This document shows positions 30,819-37,404 of a stretch of 57,286 bases of DNA, piece by piece; within the stretch, counting starts at the first letter, position 1, and every line of letters begins with the position of its first letter. Origin of the DNA: Treponema sp. (lineage in GTDB: Bacteria; Spirochaetota; Spirochaetia; Treponematales; Breznakiellaceae). A program made the translations under genes and the position numbers. Location of the stretch: contig WRLP01000018.1 of assembly GCA_009777535.1 (NCBI GenBank), forward strand, positions 1 through 57,286, written 5' to 3'. The notes under the pieces are model-generated. The model was not told the origin of the DNA, searched no databases, and saw only the letters and a program-made list of their open reading frames with translations.

Positions 30819-31142
30819 ATGACATTTAGCGAAAGAATGAAGGAATTGATGGATCAGGGACTTACGGCATCCAAGGAATTTGCCGTTAAGGCAGGCGCAA
30901 AAGCCCAGGATCTGGGTGAACGCGGAATTATGATGCTCGAAATCAGGCAGCTTGAAGGCCAGGCTCAAAAAATCCTGAGCCGCCTGGGGAACGAGGTTTA
31001 CCGCACATTTGCCGAGCGCCGCGAATCCATTGTAGAGCGTGACGCCCCCGAGATAAAGGCCATACTTGACGAGCTTGCGGCGGTGAAGGAAGCCCTTGAA
31101 AAGAAAGAAACAGAACTGAAGATGCGGAAAAACAATTCCTGA
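30819..31142 (+). CDS. Small coiled-coil protein
   Basis: 107 aa, nearly all helix, rich in Glu, Lys and Ala. Heptad-like pattern from about residue 35 to 100. AGGAG stands 6 nt before ATG 30819, and the gene starts 9 nt after the phosphatase stop, so it is cotranscribed. No family recognised with confidence. Followed by a strong hairpin terminator. Confidence 0.75.
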   Translation: MTFSERMKELMDQGLTASKEFAVKAGAKAQDLGERGIMMLEIRQLEGQAQKILSRLGNEVYRTFAERRESIVERDAPEIKAILDELAAVKEALEKKETELKMRKNNS

Positions 31143-31212
31143 TCCCGCACGGTAAGCAAAAAAACTCCGTCTACCGACGGAGTTTTTTTCTTATTGAGCC
31201 GTGCAGGATTCG
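31141..31212. repeat. Direct repeat flanking a folded stretch, copy 1 (with tRNA-Lys 3' fragment)
   Basis: About 72 bp nearly identical to 31403-31475: a CCCGCACGG word, the ACTCCG terminator hairpin, and GAGCCGTGCAGGATTCG at 31196-31212, which is the 3' end of the tRNA-Lys gene. Only 17 nt of tRNA are present, so this copy is not a tRNA gene. Confidence 0.85.
31158..31189 (+). terminator. Bidirectional intrinsic terminator
   Basis: AAAAAAACTCCGTC and GACGGAGTTTTTTT form a perfect stem with A-run and T-run, so it works on both strands. It ends the transcript of the sensor phosphatase and coiled-coil genes. Confidence 0.9.
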
Positions 31213-31402: not shown

Positions 31403-31475
31403 GAATCCCGCACGGTAAGCAAAAAAACTCCGCCTATCGACGGAGTTTTTTTTCATTGAGCCGTGCAGGATTCGA
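31403..31475. repeat. Direct repeat flanking a folded stretch, copy 2 (runs into tRNA-Lys)
   Basis: Second copy of the 31141-31212 repeat. Here the right part is the genuine 3' end of the tRNA-Lys gene. CGAATCCCGCACGG at the left end is complementary to CCGTGCAGGATTCG at the right end, so the terminator sits inside a longer palindrome. Confidence 0.85.
31421..31453 (-). terminator. Terminator after tRNA-Lys
   Basis: AAAAAAACTCCG ... CGGAGTTTTTTTT stem-loop just downstream of the tRNA on the minus strand; symmetrical, so active in both directions in principle. Confidence 0.85.
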
Positions 31476-31611: not shown

Positions 31612-32187
31612 TCACCATTCTTTTGGGCTGCCGTTTGGCGGGGTTATGTTATAAGTATCTCCGGAAGGCTCAATAAAATAAAGGCCCTGGTTTAATGCGT
31701 GATTTCTTGCTTCATCTGTTACTACAATACCTGCAACCGCTCCCAAAAAAGCGCGTTTATCACCGCGTATATTTGCATAGACACGCATTTTTTCAAGGCG
31801 TTCTATGTGTTTATCTATACGGTCGGTGGTGAGTTTTGTTTTTGCTTCGACCAGCATGGCTTTATCGCCGTTTTCCAGCATGATGTCAATTTCCAGATAA
31901 ATCTTATTCACCCTGTCGTTAACAAAAACATTTGGATTTGCTCTGGGAAAGTCGAACCCAAAATCTCTGAATTTTTCACATAGATCGGCTGCGAGCATAT
32001 GTTCAGTTACTTCGCCAAAAAGGTTGGTTAAATGTCCAAGCCTTCTGTAAAAATCATCTCTATTTTTTTTCATTGTTCGGTCGGATTCTTCCTGCCGCTT
32101 GGCAATTCTGTCTAATGTCGCCCAGACTGTTTCAAAACCGGGGGGAGGGGCATCCGGTTGCCGCCCTGCTGTTTGTGTTGTTTCCAT
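31612..32187 (-). CDS. DUF3782-type PD-(D/E)XK nuclease-like protein, copy 1
   Basis: 191 aa from ATG 32187; a longer GTG frame to 32277 would translate the upstream terminator and is rejected. An N-terminal helical segment is followed by a restriction-endonuclease-like core: LEIDIMLENGD ... MLVEAKTKL gives the D and ExK elements. The DUF3782 family is often multicopy in host-associated bacteria and its role is unknown. It is a diverged paralogue of the gene at 36808-37404, sharing EIDILLENGDxAMxVEAK and the closing SPKEW. Confidence 0.8.
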   Translation of the reverse strand: METTQTAGRQPDAPPPGFETVWATLDRIAKRQEESDRTMKKNRDDFYRRLGHLTNLFGEVTEHMLAADLCEKFRDFGFDFPRANPNVFVNDRVNKIYLEIDIMLENGDKAMLVEAKTKLTTDRIDKHIERLEKMRVYANIRGDKRAFLGAVAGIVVTDEARNHALNQGLYFIEPSGDTYNITPPNGSPKEW

Positions 32188-32242
32188 AGTTATAATATAC
32201 ATATCTTCGGCCATCAGGGCAAATGGTGTTCGTGGTGTTCCA

Positions 32243-32274
32243 CAAAAAAAACCCCGGCTGCCCGGGGTTTTTTT
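32243..32274 (-). terminator. Terminator of left outer-membrane gene
   Basis: A-run, then ACCCCGG..CCGGGGT stem and T-run; conserved in the inverted copy at 36761-36791. Confidence 0.9.
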
Positions 32275-32289
32275 CACTGCTAGGTTAAA

Positions 32290-33645
32290 TTACCAGCTAA
32301 CTTTGAAGTGTACGGGAATTCCAAAGTAAATCTCACCGGCTGCATCAACATTGCTGCCTGCTTGTTTACCGGACGAACTCTCGGTTGCCACACTAAGCCC
32401 GGTCTGGAGTGTTACACCCCCAATCTCGTAAGAAGCATACACGCCAAGGCTGAATGTGGTGTCATTATTGATAAACTCTTCTGTGCTGCCACCAACATCA
32501 AGTTCAGCAGTCTCTGAAAGTACTGCAAAGGCAAGCTGGGCACCAACAGTAAGGTTTTCGGTAATTTCGTATTTTCCACCAAGAGCCATATACAATCCGA
32601 ACATACCGCCCTTTTCGTCTTTTCCAAAATACTGCCCGTCATAAACACCAATTGGATTATCAGAGCCGGTTATACCGCCAAACCACAGGTGAGTAATAAG
32701 ACCGACTGTCAGACTTTCAACTCCGGTGAACTGTACTGCAAGATCAATGCCAAGCAGGAAGGGCGAAACAAAACTAACTTGATCGCCAGCAACCATGTCA
32801 TCTTCATATACGGTGAATTCTGTTGCAACACCGAAAGCAATATCAAGTCCGTCTACAACAAACAGGTTGGCATAAACGCCAATGCTGTTGTACCACTCGC
32901 CATTACCATCCGGATCGCTCGAACCGGTAAGATCGTTGCTATGCTTTGATGTTTCGTTTCCGCCAAGAATCCTGTAGACAAATCCGAGCGATATCACATC
33001 GGCGAGTTTATCAAGCTCGAGCCTTAAACCCATATTAATTGCATCTGAGTTCCAGGTTCCATCGGGTACTGACCTGATTACACTGGTACCGATCGTAACA
33101 AAAACAGGCTCGAAACCGGCAGTTATGTAATACAGTGCTTCGCCCAATTTGAGACCTTTGCAATAAAAACCATCTGCAAAATCATCGTAGTAGAAGAAAT
33201 CTCCGTTAAAGGCATCGGCAAAGAAACTGATTTTGCTGCCATCACCTTCATTCCCTACATAGCCGCTGAAAATACCGATGTCACCCTTGAAGTACCAGTC
33301 TCCAAAACCCTGATCCAGAAAGTCCTGGAATGTCGCGCCATTATCGGAATAGAAACTTCCGTGTCCTTGCCAATCGGCCAAAGCTCCCAGGTCCCAATCC
33401 AGGAAGGCTTCATAATTTTCACCTGTGTAGGTGAATGACAGACCCAATCCATTTCCGAAACGGGCGTGCGGAATAGACAGGAAATCAACATCTCCGGGCT
33501 CCGAATTGTCAGCGGCTTTCCCCGTCCCATTCCGAACACTGAACAGATCCACTGCGGCGTCCGCATGGAATCCAATGGACAACTGCGCAAAGGCGGCGGT
33601 GGTTATTAATGCGAGCAGAATAGAAATTGCAACAAGCTTTTTCAT
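32290..33645 (-). CDS. Outer-membrane beta-barrel protein, variant L
   Basis: 451 aa. Signal peptide MKKLVAISILLALITTAAFA, then alternating beta-strand sequence ending in FKVSW, a C-terminal aromatic residue typical of barrel-insertion signals. AAGGAGGAAAT precedes the ATG. A TTGACA promoter is upstream. It is about 90% identical to variant R at 35387-36742, with differences clustered in short patches (about residues 93-101, 107-112, 191-199, 253-256 and 320-350) that look like surface loops. Function, pore or adhesin, is not readable from the sequence. Confidence 0.85.
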   Translation of the reverse strand: MKKLVAISILLALITTAAFAQLSIGFHADAAVDLFSVRNGTGKAADNSEPGDVDFLSIPHARFGNGLGLSFTYTGENYEAFLDWDLGALADWQGHGSFYSDNGATFQDFLDQGFGDWYFKGDIGIFSGYVGNEGDGSKISFFADAFNGDFFYYDDFADGFYCKGLKLGEALYYITAGFEPVFVTIGTSVIRSVPDGTWNSDAINMGLRLELDKLADVISLGFVYRILGGNETSKHSNDLTGSSDPDGNGEWYNSIGVYANLFVVDGLDIAFGVATEFTVYEDDMVAGDQVSFVSPFLLGIDLAVQFTGVESLTVGLITHLWFGGITGSDNPIGVYDGQYFGKDEKGGMFGLYMALGGKYEITENLTVGAQLAFAVLSETAELDVGGSTEEFINNDTTFSLGVYASYEIGGVTLQTGLSVATESSSGKQAGSNVDAAGEIYFGIPVHFKVSW

Positions 33646-33675
33646 ATTTCCTCCTTAAACTTGCGGGAAGGAAGC

Positions 33676-33686
33676 AACCGACGGTT
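33676..33686. other. 11-bp palindrome at inner end of left arm
   Basis: AACCGACGGTT is a perfect palindrome with one central base. It lies at the point where identity between the inverted arms stops; the same sequence (AACCGTCGGTT) is at 35346-35356. It is a candidate recombinase crossover core. Confidence 0.5.
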
Positions 33687-33727
33687 ACTTAGTTCCTCCC
33701 CTATCTCATGAAGTACTATTGATCATA

Positions 33728-33756
33728 GTAGTATCATGTTTTAATTTTTTTGTCAA
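33728..33756 (-). promoter_or_regulatory. Promoter of left outer-membrane gene, inside invertible centre
   Basis: On the minus strand TTGACA (33751-33756), 17-nt spacer, TACTAC (33728-33733); a perfect -35 box and a fair -10 box pointing into the gene at 33645. It lies 40 bp inside the central segment, not in the shared arm. Confidence 0.65.
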
Positions 33757-34071
33757 GATATTTTTCCGAAAGTGGATTCTACCCGGTTTCCCGAAAACAA
33801 CCCCCAATACAGTGTACAATGCCCCTTTAGTGTACATATCCTAACATGCGTTCCCGGCACAAGCCCAGAAAACGCCTCCTCTATATTATCGCATCTTTTT
33901 ATAAAGTGTTCAAGTAGTTTATCAAGGATTTTTGCAGTAAAAAATTGATTATTTCCAGGATTTCGGCCAAAAACAGGGGTTTTTTTGGGAAATTTCAGTT
34001 TTCCACACAAAAACTCAAAAAACAGGCAGCGTCCCACTCAAAGCCTATGTCAGCGGAAATGACAGCAGTTT
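33757..34071. other. Non-coding part of the recombinase segment
   Basis: No gene seen. It contains AGTGTACA twice (33811-33818 and 33829-33836), 18 bp apart in the same orientation, which could be recombinase arm-binding sites, and short A/T runs. Confidence 0.4.
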
Positions 34072-35199
34072 TCAGGGGAGAATTGTTTTTTGAACATCAA
34101 GAACCTCGGAAAATTCACGGCTGTCAAAATGGGTATAGTGCCTGGTCATGGACAGGGATTTGTGGCCCGTAACCTTCTGAACTTTAAGTGTACTGACATT
34201 AGCCATAAGCAGGGCAGTATTAAGAAAATGCCTCCAATGGTGCAGTGTAATACTGCGTTTTTTTCTCTCCCTGCTGTCTATGCCTATTTTATCGAAGGCC
34301 CTTCCCGTTTCCCTGTAAAGCCGACTCCGTGAAATCGGAGTTTTACCCCCCGAATCGGAAAAAACAAACCCTTGCCCATAATTAACGAGTTTTAGAAGGT
34401 TCCTGCGCAGACTGTCTACAATAGGAACATTCCTTGAGTCTTTTGTCTTTAATGGCCTTAAGCCGTATTTTTTTGAATACTGAACACAAACATGTATATA
34501 ATTATCATGGATATTTTCTCTTTGCAGGCCCATTATCTCGCTCAGCCTCATGCCCGTACAGGCGGCAAGCATATTAAAAATATACACCTCATGGCTTGTC
34601 CAAACATTTTTCCAGTTCTCCGGGAATAGTTTTCGTACTTCTTCACGCTTTAATATTTGGACTTCTTTGTTATGTGCAGTTAATTTTTTTATTTTCTCGG
34701 ACGGATCGAATGTTATCAGTTTAAGACGTACCGCCTCTTTCAACATTACCTTTAGCGTAGCGATATGAACATTAATGGAAGAATTGCTGCAGCCTTTCCG
34801 TGAAAGGGTTATAATCCAGTTTTGTATTGTTTCCTGACATATAGTGTTAAGCCGCATATTTCCAAAATATGGTTTTATATGGCGCTCCAAACTGGTTTTA
34901 TAATGATCGATGGTAGAAGGCGCAAGGGGATTTTGCATCCGTCGCCATTCCAGATATTTACATGTTTTGGGATTCCACCAGCCGACAGCAAAATCAGCAA
35001 AGCCAATGGTTCTTTTTTCGGGTACTAATTTTCCTTTTTTATATAACTCCATGCAATATATTTTGGCGGCTGTTTTTGTCCGTTGTCCGGTAGAATGGCC
35101 GCAAATTCTTTTGCCATTACTGTCATAACACTGGTAATAGAACACGGTAACTGTTTTTAATTTTCTGGGATAAACCGTAAAGGGCTCCTTGTATCTCAT
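34072..35199 (-). CDS. Tyrosine recombinase (phage-type integrase)
   Basis: 375 aa from ATG 35199 with AGGAGG 7 nt before it; an ATG at 35220 would add seven residues. An N-terminal SAM-like core-binding domain covers about residues 90-175 (PSTIDHYKTSLERHIKPYFG). The catalytic domain shows Arg in ACTGMRLSEIMG, His-x-x-Arg in LHHWRHFLNTA, His in TGHKSLS and the nucleophile Tyr in TRHYTHFD, so it should be active. The N-terminal MRYKEPFTVYPRKL part resembles AP2-like arm-binding domains. It lies inside the centre of a 1.45-kb inverted repeat formed by two outer-membrane genes, so it may invert that segment; being a conventional island integrase is the alternative. Confidence 0.92.
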   Translation of the reverse strand: MRYKEPFTVYPRKLKTVTVFYYQCYDSNGKRICGHSTGQRTKTAAKIYCMELYKKGKLVPEKRTIGFADFAVGWWNPKTCKYLEWRRMQNPLAPSTIDHYKTSLERHIKPYFGNMRLNTICQETIQNWIITLSRKGCSNSSINVHIATLKVMLKEAVRLKLITFDPSEKIKKLTAHNKEVQILKREEVRKLFPENWKNVWTSHEVYIFNMLAACTGMRLSEIMGLQRENIHDNYIHVCVQYSKKYGLRPLKTKDSRNVPIVDSLRRNLLKLVNYGQGFVFSDSGGKTPISRSRLYRETGRAFDKIGIDSRERKKRSITLHHWRHFLNTALLMANVSTLKVQKVTGHKSLSMTRHYTHFDSREFSEVLDVQKTILP

Positions 35200-35343
35200 A
35201 AAACCTCCTGTTGCATACATAAGTGCTTACACCCGATCAAACTTGAATTACGTGCAATGCATAATCTATGTGCAATTTTAACCATAATAACGATTTACGC
35301 TCTCGTAGACTATCGGAATTTTTCCGGTTCATGAAAGCAAAAT
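35200..35343. other. Leader of recombinase and region upstream of right outer-membrane gene
   Basis: AT-rich, no ORF. Words TTGCAC and TAATTC on the minus strand may form a weak recombinase promoter. On the plus strand I find no -35/-10 pair comparable to the TTGACA promoter of the left copy. Confidence 0.45.
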
Positions 35344-35386
35344 GTAACCGTCGGTTGCTTCCTTCCCGCAAGTTTAAGGAGGAAAT

Positions 35387-36742
35387 ATGAAAAAGCTTGT
35401 TGCAATTTCTATTCTGCTCGCATTAATAACCACAGCCGCCTTTGCGCAGTTGTCCATTGGATTCCATGCGGAAGCCGCAGTCGATCTGTTCAGTGTTGAG
35501 AATGGTACAGGAAAAGCTGCTGACAATTCGGAACCCGGGGATGTTAATTTCCTGTCCATTCCGCACGCCCGCTTCGGCAATGGTTTAGGTCTGTCATTCA
35601 CCTACACAGGTGAAAATTATGAGGCCTTCCTGGATTGGGACCTGGGAGCTTTGGCCGACTGGGAGCATGGCCCAAGTTTCTACAACGACAATGGCGCGAC
35701 ATTTCTTGACGTTCTGGGTCAGGGCTTTGGAGACTGGTATTTCAAGGGTGATATCGGTATTTTCAGCGGTTATGTAGGGAATGAAGGCGATGGCAGCAAA
35801 ATCAGTTTCTTTGCCGATGCCTTTAATGGAGATTTCTTCTACTACGATGATTTTGAGGATGGTTTTTATTGCAAAGGCCTCAAATTGGGCGATACGCTGT
35901 ATTACATAACTGCCGGTTTCGAGCCTGTTTATGTTACAATCGGTACCAGCGTATTGAATATTGATCCCCGCGACCACTGGAACTCCGATGCGATTAATAT
36001 GGGTTTAAGGGTTGAGCTTGATAAACTCGCCGATGTAATATCGCTCGGATTTGTCTACAGGATTCAAGGCGGAAACGAAACATCAAAGCATAGCAACGAT
36101 CTTACCGGTTCGAGCGATCCGGATGGTAATGGTGCGTGGCAAAACAGCATTGGCGTTTATGCCAACCTGTTTGTTGTAGACGGCCTTGACATTGCTTTTG
36201 GTGTCGCTACACCATTCACCGTATATGAAGATGACATGGTTGCTGGCGATCAAGTTAGTTTTGTTTCGCCCTTCCTGCTTGGCATTGATCTTGCGGTACA
36301 GTTCACCGGTGTTGAAAACCTTACAGTCGGCCTTATTACCCACATGGTGTTTGGCGGTATAACCGGCTCTGATAATCCAATTGGTGTCTATGAAGGGCAG
36401 ACTTTTGGAAAAGACGAAAAGGCCAGTTTATTCGGGTTGTATATGGCTCTTGGAGGAAAATACGGTATTACCGAAAACCTTACCGTCGGTGCCCAGCTTG
36501 CTTTTGCAGTAGCTTCATCGACCGCTGAACTTGATGTTGGTGGCAGCACAGAAGAATATATAAATAATGACACCACATTCAGCCTTGGCGTGTATGCTAC
36601 CTACGAGATTGGGGGTGTAACACTCCAGACCGGGCTTAGTATGGCAACCGAGAGTTCGTCCGGTAAACAAGCAGGCAGCAATGTTGATGCAGCCGGCGAA
36701 ATTTACTTTGGAATTCCCGTGCACTTCAAAGTTAGCTGGTAA
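35387..36742 (+). CDS. Outer-membrane beta-barrel protein, variant R
   Basis: 451 aa, the same length, signal peptide, C-terminal FKVSW and AAGGAGGAAAT ribosome site as variant L (32290-33645). Substitutions come in clusters, e.g. IRSVPDGT to LNIDPRDH and EWY to AWQ, while long stretches between are identical, a mosaic typical of surface-loop diversification or gene conversion. No consensus-like promoter precedes it in the present orientation, so it may be silent or weakly expressed. Convergent with the DUF3782 gene. Confidence 0.85.
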   Translation: MKKLVAISILLALITTAAFAQLSIGFHAEAAVDLFSVENGTGKAADNSEPGDVNFLSIPHARFGNGLGLSFTYTGENYEAFLDWDLGALADWEHGPSFYNDNGATFLDVLGQGFGDWYFKGDIGIFSGYVGNEGDGSKISFFADAFNGDFFYYDDFEDGFYCKGLKLGDTLYYITAGFEPVYVTIGTSVLNIDPRDHWNSDAINMGLRVELDKLADVISLGFVYRIQGGNETSKHSNDLTGSSDPDGNGAWQNSIGVYANLFVVDGLDIAFGVATPFTVYEDDMVAGDQVSFVSPFLLGIDLAVQFTGVENLTVGLITHMVFGGITGSDNPIGVYEGQTFGKDEKASLFGLYMALGGKYGITENLTVGAQLAFAVASSTAELDVGGSTEEYINNDTTFSLGVYATYEIGGVTLQTGLSMATESSSGKQAGSNVDAAGEIYFGIPVHFKVSW

Positions 36743-36760
36743 TTTAATTTAGCAGACTAT

Positions 36761-36791
36761 AAAAAAACCCCGGGCAGCCGGGGTTTTTTTT
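36761..36791 (+). terminator. Terminator of right outer-membrane gene
   Basis: AAAAAAACCCCGG/CCGGGGTTTTTTTT stem-loop, the inverted counterpart of 32243-32274. Symmetrical, so it also serves the convergent gene. Confidence 0.9.
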
Positions 36792-36807
36792 GTGCTTGGC
36801 GGGGTGA

Positions 36808-37404
36808 CTACCACTCTTTAGGAGAAAAATCTTTTGGAATGGAAATCTTCACAGTAGGCTCCCCTTCGGGTCGCGCACTGAGTGGAAATATTGAATGGTC
36901 GCTCCGAACCTCCGGTTCGTCGCTCCCGGCAGTGACACCAGTCTGCTCTACTATATAAAAACCCGCCTTATGGGCGTAGTTGCGCACAGAATCGCTCATT
37001 ATTGCTCCGGCTATGGCTCCCTGAAACTTGCGTCTGTCATTGCGGGCATCGGCACGCCGGCGAAGTACTTCAATCCGCTTTACGTGTTCGTCCACATCAT
37101 TTTCGCGCGGTTTTGCTTTTACCTCTACCACCATGGCTATATCGCCGTTTTCCAGCAGTATATCAATCTCCGCAAGGCACCGCCCATTGCCGTCATAAAT
37201 ACTGTGATCAAGCGAGATTTGTTCGAATTTAAAGCCTAAATCCCTGAATTTTTCCTTTATGTTGGGAGCAACCAGATGCTCGGCCAGTTCCCCAAAACGA
37301 TTACCTAATCTGCTGATTTGCCGATCAGTTTCCTTCATTTGTTCTCGGGTTTCCTGGAACATTGCCCAGACCTTTTCAAAGGTTAATGTCTCTGTTGATG
37401 TCAT
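36808..37404 (-). CDS. DUF3782-type PD-(D/E)XK nuclease-like protein, copy 2
   Basis: 198 aa. N-terminal helix with QETREQMKETDRQISRL, then AEIDILLENGDIAMVVEVKAK giving the D-ExK catalytic pattern, and a closing SPKEW. It carries an insert before the end (about residues 160-185) that copy 1 lacks. Copies 1 and 2 point the same way although the outer-membrane genes between them are inverted, so they are not part of the inverted repeat. Role unknown. Confidence 0.8.
   Translation of the reverse strand: MTSTETLTFEKVWAMFQETREQMKETDRQISRLGNRFGELAEHLVAPNIKEKFRDLGFKFEQISLDHSIYDGNGRCLAEIDILLENGDIAMVVEVKAKPRENDVDEHVKRIEVLRRRADARNDRRKFQGAIAGAIMSDSVRNYAHKAGFYIVEQTGVTAGSDEPEVRSDHSIFPLSARPEGEPTVKISIPKDFSPKEW

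Follow-up and report, generated by a model that had tools for sequence, protein, structure and literature searches.

Evidence for a probable phage-integrase-derived inversion switch of paired outer-membrane protein genes in Treponema, with its predicted sites inside a structured leader RNA

By analogy, the known system that is functionally closest to the treponeme locus described here is Vpma/Xer1 of Mycoplasma agalactiae, by which we mean that the locus would work like it and not that the two have a common descent. In Vpma each gene has a recombination site within its 5' untranslated region (-1 to -72), there is one promoter with an adjacent tyrosine recombinase, inversion joins silent surface-lipoprotein genes to the promoter, and disruption of xer1 locks the state (PMC2268961). 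Vpma/Xer1 and the Vsp system of M. bovis share with our locus a tyrosine recombinase beside a surface-gene family, one promoter, and sites in the 5' untranslated regions, but they concern lipoproteins of a wall-less bacterium, comprise six genes and have sites of unrelated sequence (PMC2268961), whereas the treponeme locus encodes spirochete outer-membrane proteins, has an enzyme of the phage-integrase type, holds both recombinase and promoter within the predicted invertible segment and has its site inside a covarying leader hairpin. Tyrosine-recombinase promoter inversions are also known in Bacteroides, e.g. those of outer-membrane proteins and of the capsules of B. fragilis (PMC4747536), and there too DNA inversion switches surface genes on and off. 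The Bacteroides systems differ, however, in having many small invertible promoters and recombinases with genome-wide reach (PMC2268961), while the treponeme segment carries its own recombinase and would serve two genes alternately. Switches of this kind are known; the novelty lies in the bacterial group that carries it, in its integrase origin and in a structured RNA leader serving as the site.

Variation of a treponemal outer-membrane protein has a precedent in TprK of Treponema pallidum, but TprK varies by gene conversion from donor cassettes, without a site-specific recombinase or promoter inversion. Our literature searches found no recombinase-driven surface switch described for treponemes, in agreement with the first-pass annotation of this DNA, to which no such arrangement in treponemes was known, and a 2025 review mentions T. 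pallidum solely in connection with repeat-length (simple-sequence-repeat) variation (PMC11868660). If our reading is true, treponemes gain a recombinase-driven surface switch, and the locus shows how a phage integrase can turn into a gene switch once a conserved leader of the host has become its target.

Anatomy of the locus and its promoter

The window, by which we mean the whole stretch of 57,286 nucleotides that was analysed, is an entire contig of a 2.77-Mb, 47-contig, 93%-complete genome. Its same-genus relatives, as far as they are named, are Treponema metagenome-assembled genomes, presumably from termite guts judging by their isolate codes. The features of the locus are as follows.

32241..32274 (-): outer terminator of the left arm, the same sequence as 36761-36794 (100% inverted repeat I4)
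32290..33645 (-): left outer-membrane gene, 451 aa, signal peptide, C-terminal Trp; predicted ON in the assembly
33662..33703 (-): complete leader RNA hairpin of the left gene; 58 bits with leader model R1, fold -20.6 kcal/mol
~33694-33701, 33673-33689 and 33665-33672 (-): left strand, inner hairpin and right strand of this hairpin
33670..33686 (-): left recombination core AACCGTCGGTTGCTTCC, inferred from the homology boundary and the exact motif
33728..33756 (-): promoter TTGACA-17-TACTAC, from direct reading and comparison
33689..35343 (no strand): predicted invertible centre, 1655 bp
34072..35199 (-): tyrosine recombinase, 375 aa when begun at MRYKE (the ORF opens at 35220); catalytic R...K...HxxR...H...Y intact
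35212..35231 (+): direct repeat TGC(A/T)TACA, two copies at 12-bp spacing, from alignment
35344..35386 (+): right half-leader, without promoter or left strand; only 28 bits with model R1
35346..35362 (+): right recombination core, an inverted exact copy of the left one, inferred from the homology boundary and the exact motif
35387..36742 (+): right outer-membrane gene, 451 aa; predicted OFF in the assembly
36761..36794 (+): outer terminator of the right arm

The first-pass annotation had described two 451-aa genes as inverted arms around a 1655-bp centre with a complete tyrosine recombinase, and this was borne out, the centre spanning exactly 33689-35343 and the recombinase having its catalytic residues intact. 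The two genes point away from the centre, are both intact and are 91% identical, and the inverted arms (32241-33688 and 35344-36794) are 91-94% complementary in three blocks; the arms also take in the terminators, whose 34-bp arms are identical. Arms of this kind are not explicable by chance. The window's genome has no other close copy of either outer-membrane gene, and the 17-bp cores at 33670-33686 and 35346-35362 are its sole exact copies. As the contig is unbroken over 57 kb, either one orientation dominates or the assembler chose the orientation. Misassembly could have fixed the orientation arbitrarily, but as the origin of the locus it is unlikely because the arms differ by 8% and an independent genome has the same layout.

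The outer-membrane proteins carry two marks of outer-membrane beta-barrels, a signal peptide (MKKLVAISILLALITTAAFA...) and a C-terminal aromatic residue (...FKVSW), both read by eye. They have no match in Pfam, a weak match to TDE1717 covers the first 36 residues only, and prediction gave no confirmation of a barrel fold, the AlphaFold model (pLDDT 27) being too poor for a fold search. Between the left and right genes dS is 0.245 over the gene and dN/dS is 0.25, so that there is no overall sign of diversifying selection; the amino-acid changes are clustered, e.g. at residues 93-96, 190-197 and 346-348. With the outer-membrane proteins of the same-genus genome G009 the window proteins match over the first 50 residues only, and with those of G015 not at all. 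Related genes of 221 and 198 aa (31612-32277 and 36808-37404, both -) flank the locus on both sides and are nuclease-like by weak DUF3782/DUF6997/YraN matches; PD-(D/E)XK genes likewise lie near cassettes in loci L027 and L119. A 48-bp block with a terminator-like hairpin occurs twice (31142-31189 and 31405-31452), 263 bp apart and 96% identical.

The promoter lies on the minus strand as TTGACA (33751-33756), a 17-bp spacer and TACTAC (33728-33733), and points toward the left gene. Because its -10 is weak it goes unlisted in a generic sigma-70 scan, which finds 5 promoters in the centre against 4.0 in shuffles and hence no excess; the promoter claim therefore rests on comparison. TTGACA-17/18-TAnnnn stands upstream of all eight complete-hairpin leaders and of none of nine half-leaders (Fisher 4e-5), although one of the nine (L120) is cut by a contig end and has only 20 bp of upstream sequence. 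The leaders are related, and the p-values thus overstate their independence. The earlier assignment of this promoter to the left gene is supported both by the sequence as read directly and by the pattern shared with complete-hairpin leaders elsewhere. The right gene, as had also been claimed, has no comparable promoter, the best candidate having a score of 8 at the wrong distance, and equal independent promoters before both genes, a result set beforehand as refuting the switch, were looked for and not found. There is only one promoter in each promoter-bearing locus (window, G009 and G003).

The core site and the leader RNA

AACCGT(C/A)GGTT is present in every copy of the core about 40 bp before the start codon, in decayed form in G032. 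When the copies within the window, G009 and G003 were compared, identity was found to begin 0-3 bp before ACCG and to run 87-118 nt downstream of the core, and further upstream the similarity was chance-like. The exception is that OMP3 and OMP4 of G009 also share upstream sequence. OMP1 and OMP2 of G009 show the breakpoint at the core although the proteins are only 38% identical, and the two copies in G015 have one core mismatch and are then identical for about 80 nt. In a control genome of another genus, G100, which has three leader-bearing paralogs and no recombinase of this clade, the upstream 30-40 nt or so are 95-100% identical. Since in the absence of the recombinase sequence is shared on both sides of the core, the breakpoint goes with the recombinase. 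From these alignments we infer that the crossover site lies within the core AACCGTCGGTTGC; the exact crossover base is likewise an inference.

The idea that the core is peculiar to recombinase loci was dropped because the core was also found in genomes without the recombinase, and this led to the recognition of a leader RNA. The core lies inside a leader hairpin that is widespread in treponemes and also occurs without a recombinase, and hence conservation of the leader alone does not show recombination. Promoter-bearing leaders fold into a two-part hairpin in which a left strand rich in purines and a right strand rich in pyrimidines enclose an inner hairpin formed by the core, and eight of them covary (score 0.429 versus 0.292 when shuffled, 0/500). 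With a model built from these eight and a cut-off of E 1, a match is obtained in 62 of 200 family genomes. Of the 31 best matches, nearly all stand 13-27 nt ahead of the start codon of genes whose beginning resembles a signal peptide, usually with AGGAGG following. In these 31 leaders 80 double-change cells were counted versus 27 in shuffles (0/500), and sliding the partner halves the score; the alignment, however, was fitted to the model and so leans toward covariation. The leader has no match in Rfam and seems to be a so far unlisted family of 5' leader RNAs, widespread among the outer-membrane genes of treponemes. In L168 (G204:C103, 1501-1593) a tandem pair of leader hairpins precedes one outer-membrane gene.

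The promoterless copies at recombinase loci lack the left strand as well, and their right strand is predicted to pair with the Shine-Dalgarno sequence AGGAGG; in the right half-leader of the window this anti-Shine-Dalgarno strand is predicted to pair with AAGGAGG. For the window, the Shine-Dalgarno sequence has a predicted accessibility of 0.93 on the left and 0.09 on the right, and the two values swap upon virtual inversion. Deletion of the left strand lowers the predicted accessibility in 28 of 30 leaders, from a mean of 0.67 to 0.22, while shuffling of that strand leads to 0.53. Among standalone leaders the Shine-Dalgarno sequence is not free in every case (0.01 in L158 and 0.20 in L164), and since the effect is not universal (L158, L164, L178) a translational lock stays an inference. 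Such a lock would resemble the fold-back inhibition of Tn10/IS10, in which RNA begun outside the proper promoter folds and hides the ribosome-binding site. The difference is that in Tn10/IS10 it protects the transposase from read-through, whereas the lock on the unselected surface gene of the treponeme is predicted in silico only.

The recombinase and its relatives

The recombinase ORF (34072-35220, -) has a better start at 35199 (AGGAGG-N4-ATG, 375 aa), preferred because the MRYKE N-terminus is common to all relatives. The enzyme is a phage-type tyrosine recombinase (PF00589 Phage_integrase, E 1.9e-20; PHROG 1 integrase, E 5e-55), its closest solved relatives are 'Int protein' 6en0, XerH and XerD, and its best named matches are XerD/XerC models, far below the cut-off, and phage integrases. 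The catalytic R, K, HxxR, H and Y are present and are invariant in four species; the AlphaFold model (pLDDT 42) was of too low a quality for a fold search. Of 200 family genomes, 31 contain a match with E no greater than 1e-60. In five of these, all of the window's genus (G009, G032, G015, G031 and G003), the recombinases are 67-73% identical, and the remaining matches do not exceed 49%; extending the search to 394 genomes from the order gave no additional close members. The window and its five relatives form one clade with 100/100 support that is nested among treponemal phage integrases, and because this six-genome clade sits inside them an integrase appears, on sequence grounds, to have been domesticated once in the window's genus.

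Many of the related phage-type integrases are followed by HTH_17, terminase and portal genes. This wider family marks a treponemal prophage type with that gene content (L062, L086, L059, L076 and others), and a conserved stretch GAATTAGCGTTGCTGGTT is found about 100 bp ahead of many of its integrases. The locus itself was not classed as a prophage because its sites are inverted, with att-type direct repeats absent, and its centre is without other phage genes. Near-matches to the core palindrome occur 150-231 bp upstream of 7 of 31 phage-type integrases where 0.24 are expected, which suggests, as an inference from motif matches, that the core resembles the native core site of the integrase family. 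The TGC(A/T)TACA direct repeat between recombinase and site is kept in all six clade genomes and could possibly be a pair of arm-type binding sites. Scans of IMG/VR with the core and with the recombinase gave no match.

The recombinase stands back to back with an outer-membrane gene in G009 (L025), G032 (L026), G015 (L073) and G003 (L075). A divergent promoterless outer-membrane gene with a core leader lies beside it in 5/5 clade genomes with enough flank, G031 being left out because its contig is cut off 129 bp before the recombinase. An outer-membrane gene is neighbour to none of the roughly 30 phage-type integrase members (Fisher 3e-6 versus the clade). In G009 the order is OMP1(-)-core-recombinase(+)-small genes-TTGACA-17-TATACT-core-OMP2(+), as in the window, and beyond OMP2 there is an OMP3 with its own core and no promoter; a fourth cassette is on a separate contig. 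The comparison among relatives that the first-pass annotation had proposed thus came out in its favour, in that the adjacency of recombinase and outer-membrane gene is conserved and the topology is repeated in a second species. What it had missed is the position of the core within an RNA leader, the descent of the recombinase from phage integrases, and the presence of more than two cassettes in other species. In G032, a nearly complete genome, there is a single decayed core without a promoter partner, and in G015 there are two cassettes and no promoter-bearing site in the assembly. The switch of G015 may be locked or incomplete, and both loci may be either locked remnants or assembly gaps.

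The proposed switch and its alternatives

The anatomy, the shared core, the breakpoints, the single promoter per locus, the conserved association and the covarying leader are all features of the sequences themselves, and the reading of them that we favour, with a probability of roughly 0.77, is that the locus is a site-specific inversion switch in which a phage-derived recombinase flips the promoter-bearing 1655-bp centre between two outer-membrane genes. The recombinase would pair the two inverted cores (AACCGTCGGTT...) in the 5' leaders and flip the centre together with its own gene. The promoter would move together with the left strand of the hairpin while the right strand remains with each gene, and because the hairpin strands are split in this way between promoter and gene, inversion would restore promoter and leader to one gene only. 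The gene that meets the promoter would gain a complete leader and a free ribosome-binding site and be ON; the other would be left beside the recombinase without promoter or left strand and be OFF, and its leftover right strand would pair with its own Shine-Dalgarno sequence and silence read-through RNA. The assembly would represent the state with the left gene ON and the right one OFF, and in G009 the promoter could be carried to any cassette by one inversion after another. Catalysis by the recombinase, the inversion itself and the ON/OFF expression are inferred, with no reads and no second strain at hand, and the same holds for the crossover base and the lock. Alternate expression of two variants, as first proposed for this locus, agrees with every comparative test that was run. 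A more specific version, in which the recombinase adopted a structured mRNA leader as its crossover site and unchosen genes are doubly silenced by the lack of a promoter and by the anti-Shine-Dalgarno half, we put forward only tentatively, at somewhat less than even odds; in G009 this split-leader device would serve at least four cassettes.

Some surface-gene inversions are RecA-driven, e.g. that of the Campylobacter fetus sap locus, and with arms as long as 1.45 kb and 91-94% identical the centre could flip by RecA-type homologous recombination with the tyrosine recombinase as a bystander. However, the G009 copies are 38% identical in protein and offer useful arms of only about 100 bp, and yet the breakpoint and the topology are unchanged; crossovers within the arms would also yield hybrid genes, and the recombinase is intact, always adjacent and conserved in its catalytic residues. 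We consider it unlikely that the recombinase is a bystander. Neither is it probable, and rather less so, that the locus is the remnant of a phage integrase that inserted in the leader of an outer-membrane gene as its att site and has no regulatory role. In its favour are the HTH_17, terminase and portal genes beside the phage integrases of the wider family and the core-like palindromes upstream of these, but insertion leaves direct-repeat att sites with one gene half on each side, whereas the sites in the window and in G009 are inverted with an intact gene behind each, and a simple phage insertion was rejected on this ground. Moreover, the locus retains no other phage gene, and several species have kept the same arrangement.

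It could also be argued that nothing inverts and that the right gene, itself silent, merely donates sequence to the left one by gene conversion. Inversion has not been observed, gene conversion could also homogenise 5' ends, and in the window the leader and 5' coding sequence are identical over 87 nt despite the gene-wide dS of 0.245. Such a static pair, however, fails to explain why homology stops at the core, and it leaves unexplained the constant presence of the recombinase and why the other half of the hairpin is on the promoter side; we regard it as very improbable. Contig breaks near the sites in G003, G009 and G011 were given no weight in favour of the inversion switch because repeats fit them equally well.

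Two further loci were noted. In the genome G011 at least three cassettes belong to the same outer-membrane family as those of the window, one of them clearly promoterless (L117, C55, 7992-11420; L118, C51, 1-1426), and its only relative of the recombinase is a broken one elsewhere in the genome. Near the G015 locus, a lipoprotein gene lies between inverted repeats (81, 53 and 28 nt, 92-94%; L027, 175-325 and 1195-1362), and this is possibly another invertible or mobile unit.
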